The position numbers were made by a program, and so were the translations under genes. From a virus: DNA of 35,890 nt. This document shows, piece by piece, positions 26,429-29,641 of the stretch (within the stretch, counting starts at the first letter, position 1; the number at the start of each line of letters is the position of its first letter). Location: positions 1-35,890 of the IMG/VR virus record IMGVR_UViG_3300007734_000920. One strand, written 5' to 3'. The notes under the pieces are model-generated. The model did no database searches. It was not told the origin of the DNA and saw only the letters and a list, made by a program, of their open reading frames with translations.

Positions 26429-27769
26429 TTAGTCGCGTTGTGGGTCTTGACCACGTCTTGCAGCAGATTTATACTCATAAGCTGCGTCAGCTGCGGATAT
26501 GATCACGCAATACTGTTTGTTGCGATTGGCTTCAAATCCCTGTGTTCGCAGCCATCTGGCTCCAATATTGGTATCTCGTTTGCTGATTGTGTACCAGCCA
26601 CAGCGTTTGAGTATTTCTGTCACATTCAGCCACTCGCCCAGATTGTTGTGTCGAGCCAAAGCATTGTAGGTAATCCTTGAACTCAAAGTCTCTTCCACTG
26701 GTTCCACTGCACGGTGCACGTTCTGTAGATTCTGCATTTGGTCGCGTTCTGTGGGACTCATGAACCAGCCCCATTCACCGTTGGCCTTGCGATCTGCTCC
26801 GGTCACAATCAGCGGTGCCACCTGCTGATACTGCACACGCATTTGTGCCCAGAATTGAGCAGGATCAATCCGACCCAGGTTAAATCCTGCCACCTGTAGC
26901 ACCCAAAAGCGACGATTCTCTCGATCCTGCAAAAACTCCTGTTCGTTCACAGTGGCATAGAACACAGTGCGTCTGGGATATTTGTTGGCAGTGCGTTCGT
27001 AGGGTGGGCGAATCACATCAACCTTTTCTGTGATAAAGGCTTTGAGTGCTTCGATATCACTGCGTCGAAAGGTAGCGTCAATTTCGCCCAGTTCGGTTAT
27101 CCAGTAGCCCAGGGCCTTGGTAAGTGCGTCCTTGTTCTTGGTGTCAATGATCACAGCATCTTTGTTCCAGATGTTGTGAAATTCACGTGGGATCAATTCC
27201 TCCACCCATATGGTCTTGCCTTGTCCTTGACTGCCTGTGAATGTCAGCACACCCTCGCAGGAGAAGTTGGGGTGATACAATGCAGCCACCAGGCTCAAGG
27301 CCCACTTGCGCATCATTGTGTGCTTCATGCTGTTATCTGTTGCTAACTCCACCGAATTGTAGAGATCTGGCAGTCTATCCACACCGTCCCAGGTCAAGCT
27401 GTTCAACCAATCACGCACCGGATGATGGCTACACTCATTGGCTATCTTGGTCAAGTGTTCGAATATGTCTGATGGATTTAGATCATGTCTACGTGCCAGG
27501 CTCTTGATGTGTGCCAGTTTGGAATTCATTGCTGTGTCTATACTGAACTGTTCTGTTGGAATGTCAATGTCCATTTCTTTGGTCATTTCATTGTGCCGTA
27601 CCCGAATGCCATAATGCTTCAACAGTGCATCTGTGTTGTCACGTGTGGGTCGGCCCCCACCCCGGGGTGTCTGATCCGGCAGCACCAACAGCAGGCTTTG
27701 CCGGGCAGTCAGTATCTGTGCTTGCAACAGGTCCAGTTGTTCGGGGGTGAGATCATCTATTTTTATCAT
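26429..27769 (-). CDS. VirE/VapE-like helicase-ATPase (SF3-like)
   Basis: A protein of 446 residues. Walker A GSQGQGKT at 179-186, Walker B ITELGEID (224-231), a motif with EALKAFITEKVDVIRPPYER (240-259) and an Arg-rich element RENRRFWV (283-290) that fits an arginine finger. NEQEFLQDRE and FYATVN support the virulence-associated E family. The N-terminal 120 residues are helical. These proteins act as the replicative helicase or initiator in mobile elements, usually beside a primase, as here. It overlaps the primase gene by ATGA. Confidence 0.85.
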   Translation of the reverse strand: MIKIDDLTPEQLDLLQAQILTARQSLLLVLPDQTPRGGGRPTRDNTDALLKHYGIRVRHNEMTKEMDIDIPTEQFSIDTAMNSKLAHIKSLARRHDLNPSDIFEHLTKIANECSHHPVRDWLNSLTWDGVDRLPDLYNSVELATDNSMKHTMMRKWALSLVAALYHPNFSCEGVLTFTGSQGQGKTIWVEELIPREFHNIWNKDAVIIDTKNKDALTKALGYWITELGEIDATFRRSDIEALKAFITEKVDVIRPPYERTANKYPRRTVFYATVNEQEFLQDRENRRFWVLQVAGFNLGRIDPAQFWAQMRVQYQQVAPLIVTGADRKANGEWGWFMSPTERDQMQNLQNVHRAVEPVEETLSSRITYNALARHNNLGEWLNVTEILKRCGWYTISKRDTNIGARWLRTQGFEANRNKQYCVIISAADAAYEYKSAARRGQDPQRD

Positions 27770-28680
27770 GGGGTTTTCTTTCTTTGTTCAATTGCATGTT
27801 CCAACTGTTGTAATTCTGCCAGTTGCTGTGCATACACTGTGTATGCTGGGTTGGTTCGCACCGGGTGACCAGCCGTGGTCAACATTCTTATACTGCCTAT
27901 TGTGGGTGATCGCTCGGCTGAGTAGCCTGAATACAACTGGCGATACTCACCTGACTTTTTTTCTGGCCAATACAAGGGCATGAGGGCCTGGGCCACAGGC
28001 ACACCCAGATGATGTGCAGTGGCCCAGGCCACAGTGCGCCAGGTATCATAGTCCAGTGTGGGGTGTTGTCCACGCAGCAGTTGCAGCAGCGTGTGTATTT
28101 CGTGCAGATCCCGATCCGACAATTGACTCAGATCTCTTGGCGGCACTGGCGGCACTGCTGGGTTGGCCTGTTGTAACCAGTAGGCCAACACAGCATCAGG
28201 CAACTGAGCAATGCCTGATTCTGCAGGTGTTCGGATCCATTCATAACTGCGACCATCACTCAATCGACTGGGAGGCAACACACTTTGTGCTCCGGCCCAG
28301 CGAAACTCAAATCCTTCTCCCAGTGCAATCTGCGGATCGCGTGTGTGTGCAATTTTTAGTGTGCGTAGATAGAACCAATAGGCAGCAGGCACCTGAAATG
28401 CCATTTGGCAGCGATCTGCTTTGCCTGAAGTCCAGGTGGCTGTGGGCAGCAGATCACAACCTATTGTGTGATCAAACCAGGACCAGGCACTGGTGCCATC
28501 AAAGTCCAAGGCACACACTCCGTGACTGGTAGGACCCAGCAACAGGCCTATATTTGTGCTGGCAATCTCTGTCAGTAGACCAGGTCGTTGTTGCCAGTTG
28601 GCAGGATATGGTCGCTTTTCGCCGTCATGCACATGGCAGTATCGCCAGGCTGGCACACATTCCAATTGTGTGTTGATCAT
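27766..28680 (-). CDS. Primase-polymerase (PrimPol-type) with PriCT-like C-terminus
   Basis: A protein of 304 residues from ATG 28680, which overlaps the previous stop (ATGA). An earlier ATG at 28749 lies in the other gene. Prim-Pol motif I ALDFDG is at 57-62 with D59 and D61, SGKADRCQM at 85-93, and GFEFRWAGAQSVLPPS at 123-138 as the third motif. Residues 205-300 (TLDYDTWRTVAWATAHHLG, MPLYWPEKKSGEYRQLY) fit a primase C-terminal domain. It would make RNA or DNA primers and could do limited synthesis. With the helicase it forms the whole visible replication set, since no other polymerase is present. Confidence 0.85.
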   Translation of the reverse strand: MINTQLECVPAWRYCHVHDGEKRPYPANWQQRPGLLTEIASTNIGLLLGPTSHGVCALDFDGTSAWSWFDHTIGCDLLPTATWTSGKADRCQMAFQVPAAYWFYLRTLKIAHTRDPQIALGEGFEFRWAGAQSVLPPSRLSDGRSYEWIRTPAESGIAQLPDAVLAYWLQQANPAVPPVPPRDLSQLSDRDLHEIHTLLQLLRGQHPTLDYDTWRTVAWATAHHLGVPVAQALMPLYWPEKKSGEYRQLYSGYSAERSPTIGSIRMLTTAGHPVRTNPAYTVYAQQLAELQQLEHAIEQRKKTP

Positions 28681-28871
28681 AGATAGTCTTCCATCACTGC
28701 ACGATAGGTGGCCAGTCGTTGTTCCAAGTCCAAGGCCCGGCTGTACCACATGGTGGCACCTTCTGGATGGAGGTCTCGGTCACATGCGGCCATGTTGCGA
28801 TAGGCCTTTCGCAGTTGTTGATCGAACCAGTCTAGATCTGCCTGAGTATCTGGGTGGGGTGTTGTGGTCAT
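28677..28871 (-). CDS. Small acidic protein at the head of the replication operon
   Basis: A protein of 64 residues, helical (DTQADLDWFDQQLRKAYRNM, EQRLATYRAVMEDYL). It begins the replication transcript, 22 nt after a CTAAATA motif, with AGGAG in the leader. Its stop overlaps the primase start by ATGA. No known family. It may be an early regulator or helicase partner. Confidence 0.65.
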   Translation of the reverse strand: MTTTPHPDTQADLDWFDQQLRKAYRNMAACDRDLHPEGATMWYSRALDLEQRLATYRAVMEDYL

Positions 28872-28958: not shown

Positions 28959-28965
28959 CTAAATA
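28959..28965 (+). promoter_or_regulatory. Plus-strand CTAAATA motif
   Basis: The plus strand reads GGCTAAATATTTCTG. The structured RNA starts only 6-7 bases downstream, which matches the usual distance from a T4-type late box to the transcript start. The only plus-strand copy thus faces the only well-supported plus-strand gene. Confidence 0.55.
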
Positions 28966-28971
28966 TTTCTG

Positions 28972-29120
28972 TCAGTGCTGCTGACACCATGGTCTGTCAG
29001 TCCATGGTGTTAAACGCAGTCCAAGATTGATGGACCATCAACCGCGTCATTTCGGGAGATCTTGTTCTAATTACCTTGTCATGGTAAGATCCTATCTCAA
29101 TCCAGCAGCACTGATTTTTT
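28972..29120 (+). ncRNA. Candidate structured non-coding or leader RNA
   Basis: The 5' end TCAGTGCTGCTG (28972-28983) pairs perfectly over 12 bp with CAGCAGCACTGA (29103-29114), followed by TTTTTT (29115-29120). Inside are a 9-bp hairpin ACACCATGG/CCATGGTGT (28984-28992 with 29002-29010), a hairpin TTGATG/CATCAA (29027-29032 with 29036-29041) framed by ACGC/GCGT (29014-29017 with 29044-29047), and GATCTT/AAGATC (29058-29063 with 29086-29091). No open reading frame or tRNA core was found. A 5'-to-3' closing stem with a T6 tail is the shape of a compact sRNA ending in its own terminator. It could also be a leader controlling the gene at 29147. Existence of a transcript is inferred. Confidence 0.6.
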
Positions 29121-29146: not shown

Positions 29147-29641
29147 ATGACTGCACCCACGTGGAACTGGCAACCTGCCAGTGGTTTACATGTGAAGGAC
29201 ATTGTGCTGATAGCACAAGATCATTTTCAATTTGAAATCGACCAAATATTCACACCCTGTGCTGTGACCTACAGCCACAACATCACGCTGGCAGTGGTCA
29301 ACCAATTTTACGGTCCCAACCATGTGTTGTTATGGGCAGCCATCACACCAGAACAACGAGTGCTGGCCTATACCTGGGCCATACGTGGTCAACGTGCAGA
29401 GTGGAGTGACAACGAAATGATTGTGATTCGCATGGCTCATGTGGCCATGGGTTTGAGTGCCAGAGTGAGAGTACTCATGATTCGGCAGATGTTTGATATT
29501 TGGGAAGACTTTGCCAGACGCTGCGGGGTTGCCATCATATGCAGCACCACCATGCGACACAGTCAATCGGTATTTTTACGCATGCATGCTCAGGCCGGTT
29601 ATGATGTGCGTGGATCATATGCCTACAAGCGATTGAAATAA
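29147..29641 (+). CDS. GNAT-like acetyltransferase-fold protein
   Basis: A protein of 164 residues on the plus strand. From about residue 90 to the end it follows the GNAT layout: strand EMIVIRMAHVA, helix RVLMIRQMFDIWEDFARRCG, strand VAIICSTTM, helix SQSVFLRMHAQAGY, and strand DVRGSYAYKRL. The canonical acetyl-CoA loop (Arg/Gln-x-x-Gly-x-Gly/Ala) is not clear: the equivalent is GLSARVRV, so activity is uncertain. Phages use such proteins for host modification or virion roles. It sits alone between divergent and convergent minus operons, with a structured leader upstream and hairpin terminators downstream. Confidence 0.6.
   Translation: MTAPTWNWQPASGLHVKDIVLIAQDHFQFEIDQIFTPCAVTYSHNITLAVVNQFYGPNHVLLWAAITPEQRVLAYTWAIRGQRAEWSDNEMIVIRMAHVAMGLSARVRVLMIRQMFDIWEDFARRCGVAIICSTTMRHSQSVFLRMHAQAGYDVRGSYAYKRLK

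Follow-up and report, generated by a model that had tools for sequence, protein, structure and literature searches.

The DNA analysed here as a whole, a 35,890-nt viral record of IMG/VR (IMGVR_UViG_3300007734_000920; hereafter the window), carries a segment of about 145 nt with complementary ends just upstream of a gene encoding a GNAT-like protein. The features assigned to this locus are as follows.

28960–28965, plus strand: putative TAAATA promoter box, 5 nt 5′ of the first base of the RNA; the sole plus-strand copy in the window.
28971–29115, plus strand: structured RNA gene; predicted transcript of ~145–150 nt.
28971–28983, plus strand: P1 5′ arm (closing helix), partner of 29103–29115; double-sided changes in 11/11 pairs tested.
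28984–29010, plus strand: P2 hairpin, 28984–28992 with 29002–29010.
29011–29019, plus strand: invariant UAAACGCAG, of which UAAACGCA is unpaired and G29019 is the first base of P3.
29019–29035, plus strand: P3 hairpin, 5 bp (29019–29023/29031–29035) with a 7-nt loop (29024–29030); 100% of cells paired in 28 members.
29025–29030, plus strand: pseudoknot 5′ strand GAUUGA, in the P3 loop; 98.8% paired, double-sided changes in 6/6 pairs.
29037–29060, plus strand: P4 domain, reduced in the window (29037–29039 with 29058–29060); assigned by inspection of members, with low confidence in the window.
29071–29087, plus strand: P5 hairpin, UUACC with GGUAA; position conserved, sequence variable; moderate confidence.
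29097–29102, plus strand: pseudoknot 3′ strand UCAAUC, adjoining the P1 3′ arm without a gap.
29103–29115, plus strand: P1 3′ arm, paired with 28971–28983; backed by covariation in the core alignment.
29115–29120, plus strand: T6 tract, putative transcript end.
29147–29641, plus strand: GNAT-like gene downstream of the RNA; a frequent neighbour, not part of the RNA.

The arms of P1, TCAGTGCTGCTG (28972–28983) and CAGCAGCACTGA (29103–29114), are perfectly complementary over 12 bp, and a G28971·U29115 wobble lengthens the closing helix to 13 bp. These paired ends, the T6 tract, and the promoter-like box upstream had been described in an initial annotation of this DNA, and all were found in their places. 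Since the window contains nine perfect 12-mer inverted repeats less than 300 bp apart (two of them overlapping), the arms by themselves are weak proof of an RNA. The fold itself stands out: its energy was −56 kcal/mol compared with −36.8 ± 4.1 for dinucleotide shuffles (z = −4.74), and none of 200 shuffles equalled it. When 28971–29118 was folded alone, z was −5.96. Thus, folding with an energy model, which the initial annotation had proposed as a check, gave a structure far stabler than dinucleotide shuffles (z from −4.7 to −6.0). No open reading frame (ORF) of at least 60 aa crosses the RNA on either strand, in agreement with the earlier remark that the conserved arms are not explained by a coding frame, and of the internal hairpins noticed at that time, P2 and P3 are backed by homologues. 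The pseudoknot formed by 29025–29030 and 29097–29102 is missing from the minimum free energy structure and was not described in the initial annotation; this H-type pseudoknot and the invariant UAAACGCAG strand are two features beyond that account.

Relatives of the RNA were sought in several collections. In 50,697 cultured-phage records, neither blastn with the region nor a consensus-like RNA query gave a match, and a single query with the window GNAT-like protein against IMG/VR found no relative. Relatives came from IMG/VR queries with two other proteins, the large terminase and the VapE-like helicase, and upstream of a homologous GNAT-like gene these relatives showed the same end-to-end pairing written in different letters. 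The family was assembled from two scans with a core pattern and one scan that added the TAAATA box; it comprises 28 distinct members, each with two complete P1 arms, including the window, and the 27 others come from IMG/VR viral contigs. Thirteen long members, the window not among them, were used to build a covariance model, which retrieved the window with E = 3.5e-11; the covariance-model search suggested in the initial annotation thus recovered the RNA with a model that had not seen its sequence. The same model retrieved the short members L103, L117, and L261 (E = 1e-6 to 3e-4). L117, a sequence of ~122 nt, is a weaker call, having been missed with whole-record E-values and the first-look filter. 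The least certain member is L254, also short: the model misses it, and it was assigned to the family because it has the promoter box, P1, P3, and a knot of 5 bp. In the records matching the model, the RNA occurs once per genome, and 11 similar-sized relatives obtained from the GNAT search had no model match anywhere in their records.

Invariance of UAAACGCAG and of some of the first P3 pairs, which the pattern scans held fixed, could be an effect of the search; P1 and the pseudoknot were in no search pattern. Because the scans might have imposed this invariance, both strands of the loci (2.48 Mb) were searched with a descriptor of structure only. Apart from one false positive, all its matches were members; the shuffled control gave 0 matches, and all true matches carried UAAACGCA and TAAATA, though the descriptor had no sequence requirement. 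Among 84,980 prokaryote genomes scanned with a pattern, no relative was found; all 28 pattern matches there were rejected because they were unfolded or not retrieved by the model. The pattern matches in L059, L081, L095, L102, L105, and L112 and most new loci from the scan with the TAAATA box were likewise rejected for having no fold or being missed by the model, as were occurrences of UAAACGCA near GNAT genes without the fold (L179, L180, L186, L192, L195, and others).

To evaluate covariation, we used a core alignment of 22 pairs (11 in P1, 5 in P3, and 6 in the pseudoknot). Among the first 22 members, 97.7% of cells were paired and 21/22 pairs changed on both sides (0/500 shuffles). Among all 28 members, standard pairs filled 97.6% of cells compared with 69.7% in column shuffles and 32–48% when the partners were slid; 161 cells were double-changed compared with 39 in shuffles, again with 21/22 pairs changed on both sides; and the covariation score was 0.783 compared with 0.228 (shuffled) and 0.065–0.188 (slid partners). 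The rows of this core were cut and registered by hand before alignment, a choice of register biased towards the structure. RNAalifold, whose result is independent of such a choice, recovered P1, P2, P3, and P4a from the 13 long members, with double changes in 23/33 pairs. Arms changing without compensation had been named in the initial annotation as the observation that would count against an RNA; on the contrary, compensatory changes were seen in 11/11 P1 pairs tested. Taken together, 28971–29115 is almost certainly a conserved structured RNA, as judged from these sequence comparisons.

The site between divergent transcription units, with arms that could extrude, could also suit a DNA element, namely a cruciform, a replication origin, or a protein-binding palindrome. 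However, G·U cells exceeded A·C cells (23 vs 9), which favours an RNA of the plus strand over DNA or the other strand, and a pseudoknot with 6/6 covarying pairs is meaningless in a simple cruciform. Together with the precise framing by a promoter box and terminators and the lack of a GC-skew turn at the RNA, these observations make a DNA element extremely improbable.

The P3 loop has 7 nt in every member, and its nucleotides 2–7 pair with six nucleotides that, in most members, abut the P1 3′ arm. In the resulting H-type pseudoknot, 1 nt spans the 6-bp stem and 0 nt lie between the stems, loop lengths that are textbook geometry for this fold. Since the knot abuts P1, P3, the pseudoknot, and P1 can be stacked into one rod. 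The window is a reduced member: P1, P2, P3, the pseudoknot, and small forms of P4 and P5 are kept, and the conserved loops of the long subfamily are gone. In most relatives P4 is bigger, with a loop AGGUAAAGUG recognised by inspection, and its inner hairpin P4a is the one regained by RNAalifold. By eye, the P2 and P5 loops might kiss, but this interaction was dropped because it is broken in several members. The unpaired stretches conserved in the long subfamily are CAAUCGC, UAAACGCA, GGUAAAGUG, CUUUCAAGUU, GCCA, and GUCCU. Several such stretches and a compact pseudoknot could form the core of a ribozyme or a ligand-binding RNA. However, no Rfam ribozyme or riboswitch matched, and the reduced members (the window, L103, and L117) have lost several of the loops, mainly UAAACGCA and the knot being left; a catalytic or aptamer function is accordingly improbable.

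Of the nine TAAATA sites in the window, eight lie on the minus strand, 11–58 nt upstream of gene starts (3014, 13569, 16077, 18746, 24706, 28899, 31041, and 34857), and the plus-strand copy at 28960 precedes the RNA. The box resembles the T4-late promoter element and also precedes GNAT in several relatives; it is a putative promoter class used phage-wide. The gap between the box and P1 is 5 nt in 22/28 members, 4 nt in five, and 2 nt in one; the box was selected for in the members unique to the last scan, which required it, and not in the remaining members. A sigma-70-like −35 element seen in the window (TTGCCT, 17 nt, TAAATA) is not claimed, as L003 and L005 do not keep this spacing. On the 3′ side, a T-run directly follows P1 in 11/28 members and a hairpin terminator follows in another 11, so that 22/28 have a T-run or an intrinsic terminator after the RNA compared with 6.5% of random positions. 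At the level of sequence, the RNA therefore has the marks of a stand-alone gene, with a TAAATA box at fixed spacing on its 5′ side and a T-run or terminator on its 3′ side, and it is very probably made as a discrete transcript.

The RNA is usually flanked by a minus-strand operon on one side and by the plus-strand GNAT-like gene on the other, and a convergent Dps/ferritin-like gene is part of this neighbourhood. The GNAT-like product of the window matched nothing in Pfam or PHROGs, and among PDB profiles it had only a weak match to 2aj6 (E = 0.016); its family is widespread in viral contigs, with 147 relatives. The gap between the RNA and GNAT contains nothing (the window and L103), a small ORF, a same-strand HNH-like ORF, or a convergent HNH endonuclease gene. 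The convergent HNH gene is found 3′ of the RNA in ten members (L063, L082, L083, L091, L093, L096, L098, L099, L100, and L113), most of which have an intrinsic terminator after the RNA, and several of which have a separate TAAATA before GNAT. In other members, an HNH-like ORF of another family fills the gap on the opposite strand. This looks like repeated insertion of homing genes beside the RNA.

This neighbourhood bears on whether the RNA is a cis leader, an attenuator or riboswitch-like element in which the fold, with P1 and the T-run, would serve as a terminator switched on or off to control the GNAT or HNH gene downstream. P1 with its T-run is terminator-like in 11/28 members, and in the window, as in about a dozen relatives, the next gene, GNAT or another ORF, is on the same strand with no second TAAATA, lying close in the window, L103, L003, L005, L087, L045, L049, L092, L097, L101, and L109; in such members the RNA may also be part of a leader. 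However, a leader would always have a same-strand target on its 3′ side, whereas the next gene is convergent in the ten members above and the RNA has its own hairpin terminator in 11/28. The convergent arrangement, and that of L117, where the RNA has a strong terminator and the DNA examined holds no GNAT, are incompatible with a GNAT cis leader in those genomes. Moreover, 54 of 74 distinct GNAT rows are without the RNA and 20 carry it. The GNATs of L233 and L103 are sisters (100/98), and in L233 (L233:2670-3000) TAAATA leads straight into an HNH-like ORF and GNAT with no RNA. We consider a cis leader unlikely, and regulation of the downstream GNAT-like gene, one of the roles offered in the initial annotation, is disfavoured.

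On the GNAT tree, the presence of the RNA requires 3 changes compared with 17.8 in shuffles, and the RNA thus appears to have been inherited largely vertically. The GC content of records with the RNA is 0.47–0.51 and that of ten fully read records without it is 0.36–0.44, a gap that may reflect different hosts. A comparison of gene content between 11 records with and 10 records without the RNA pointed to no convincing partner gene; kinship and GC content confound this comparison. Genes for a Prim-Pol primase and the VapE-like helicase lie at 26429–28749 of the window; the primase family occurs in 2/11 records with the RNA and in 9/10 without it, showing that the replication module does not track the RNA. 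None of ten proteins encoded around the window RNA matched a reverse transcriptase in PHROGs or Pfam, which argues against a retron ncRNA.

The RNA was also compared with known RNAs. Among the 4,227 families of Rfam 15, none matched the window or six member loci at the gathering score, and at E up to 10 only chance microRNA and lncRNA matches appeared. ARAGORN called no tRNA or tmRNA at any member RNA; its two tRNAs lie elsewhere (L254:8762 and in L256). The latter, a phage tRNA-Leu (UAA) at L256:6855-6937, raised the question of a tRNA origin, as its D-loop and anticodon arm, with GGUAAACGCAG followed by a 5-bp stem and a 7-nt loop, resemble UAAACGCAG with P3. Unlike the tRNA, the RNA lacks a D-stem partner, U33, and a T arm, the preceding GG is absent as a rule, and a pseudoknot closes off the loop; with no ARAGORN or Rfam match and these tRNA features missing, a tRNA origin was rejected.

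The pRNA of phi29 is a phage-encoded, stand-alone RNA with paired ends and loop–loop contacts between copies. Our RNA resembles it in being phage-encoded and stand-alone, with a similar length and paired 5′ and 3′ ends, and the small podovirus-like genome would also suit a packaging or virion RNA. However, an internal H-type pseudoknot on the closing helix replaces the contacts between copies, the large terminase is ordinary (PHROG match), many similar-sized relatives of the phage group are without the RNA, and no Rfam family matched, a result that presumably covers pRNA itself, which we take to be among those families. The packaging role suggested in the initial annotation thus found no support and is very unlikely. 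GOLLD and ROOL are ornate structured RNAs of phages and prophages with unknown function. The present RNA is likewise structured and phage-associated, but GOLLD and ROOL, whose folds have been described (PMC12286853), are several times larger, and no Rfam family matched here. The manA and wcaG motifs are carried in the 5′ UTRs of metabolic genes of T4-like cyanophages (Weinberg 2010; PMC2864571). They share with our RNA a phage origin, a source largely in aquatic metagenomes, and a structure defined by covariation (PMC2864571), whereas our RNA stands as a separate unit, often with a terminator or a convergent gene on its 3′ side, and had no Rfam match. Literature searches, which largely did not reach subscription papers, found no description of the RNA. 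Small structured ncRNAs of phages are already known as a kind; the family itself is unmatched in the libraries searched. With its covariation, fixed box spacing, terminators, and lack of Rfam, tRNA, and cultured-phage matches, the earlier proposal of a stand-alone phage RNA that is not a tRNA and is apparently novel holds.

How the RNA acts is less certain. Its invariant and apparently unpaired UUAAACGCAG, found in 28/28 members from different phages, could be the seed of a base-pairing small RNA directed at host or phage transcripts with UGCGUUUA. However, the window has one sense-strand UGCGUUUA, within a coding gene and distant from the gene start, and a conserved pseudoknot stacked on the closing helix is needless for a simple seed; this possibility is quite unlikely. 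Because the knot and the closing helix, rather than a simple seed, bear the conservation, and because the window offers a single possible target site, we prefer protein binding over base pairing.

Overall, we favour, with a probability of roughly 50%, a discrete trans-acting structured ncRNA of the phage that is probably protein-binding. The phage's own TAAATA promoter would drive transcription, with the start at the first P1 nucleotide or within one base of it and the end at the T-run or the following intrinsic terminator. The product would be a discrete, exonuclease-resistant RNA of ~125–195 nt, in which the invariant UAAACGCA strand runs into the knot, the two together forming a putative recognition site. 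It would act in trans on a protein of the host or the phage, as its scaffold or decoy; for this protein-binding part taken separately, we put the chance slightly below even.

Since paired mutations keep the shape in 28 versions, the RNA must, as far as such conservation can be read, do something for the phage. The family is compact, apparently undescribed, and strongly covarying, and it occurs in uncultured phages with many viral-contig relatives; as its fold is resolved pair by pair, its function is directly testable. To our knowledge, few stand-alone structured RNAs of lytic phages are well supported, and those that are understood indicated distinct mechanisms. More tentatively, and somewhat less likely than not, the family may represent a new class of phage-encoded regulatory or decoy RNAs, framed by a phage-specific TAAATA promoter and a terminator, that hijack a protein of the host or the machinery of translation or transcription, the rigid rod of P3, pseudoknot, and P1 presenting the invariant UAAACGCA strand during infection. 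If true, this would be a mechanism without a described counterpart.
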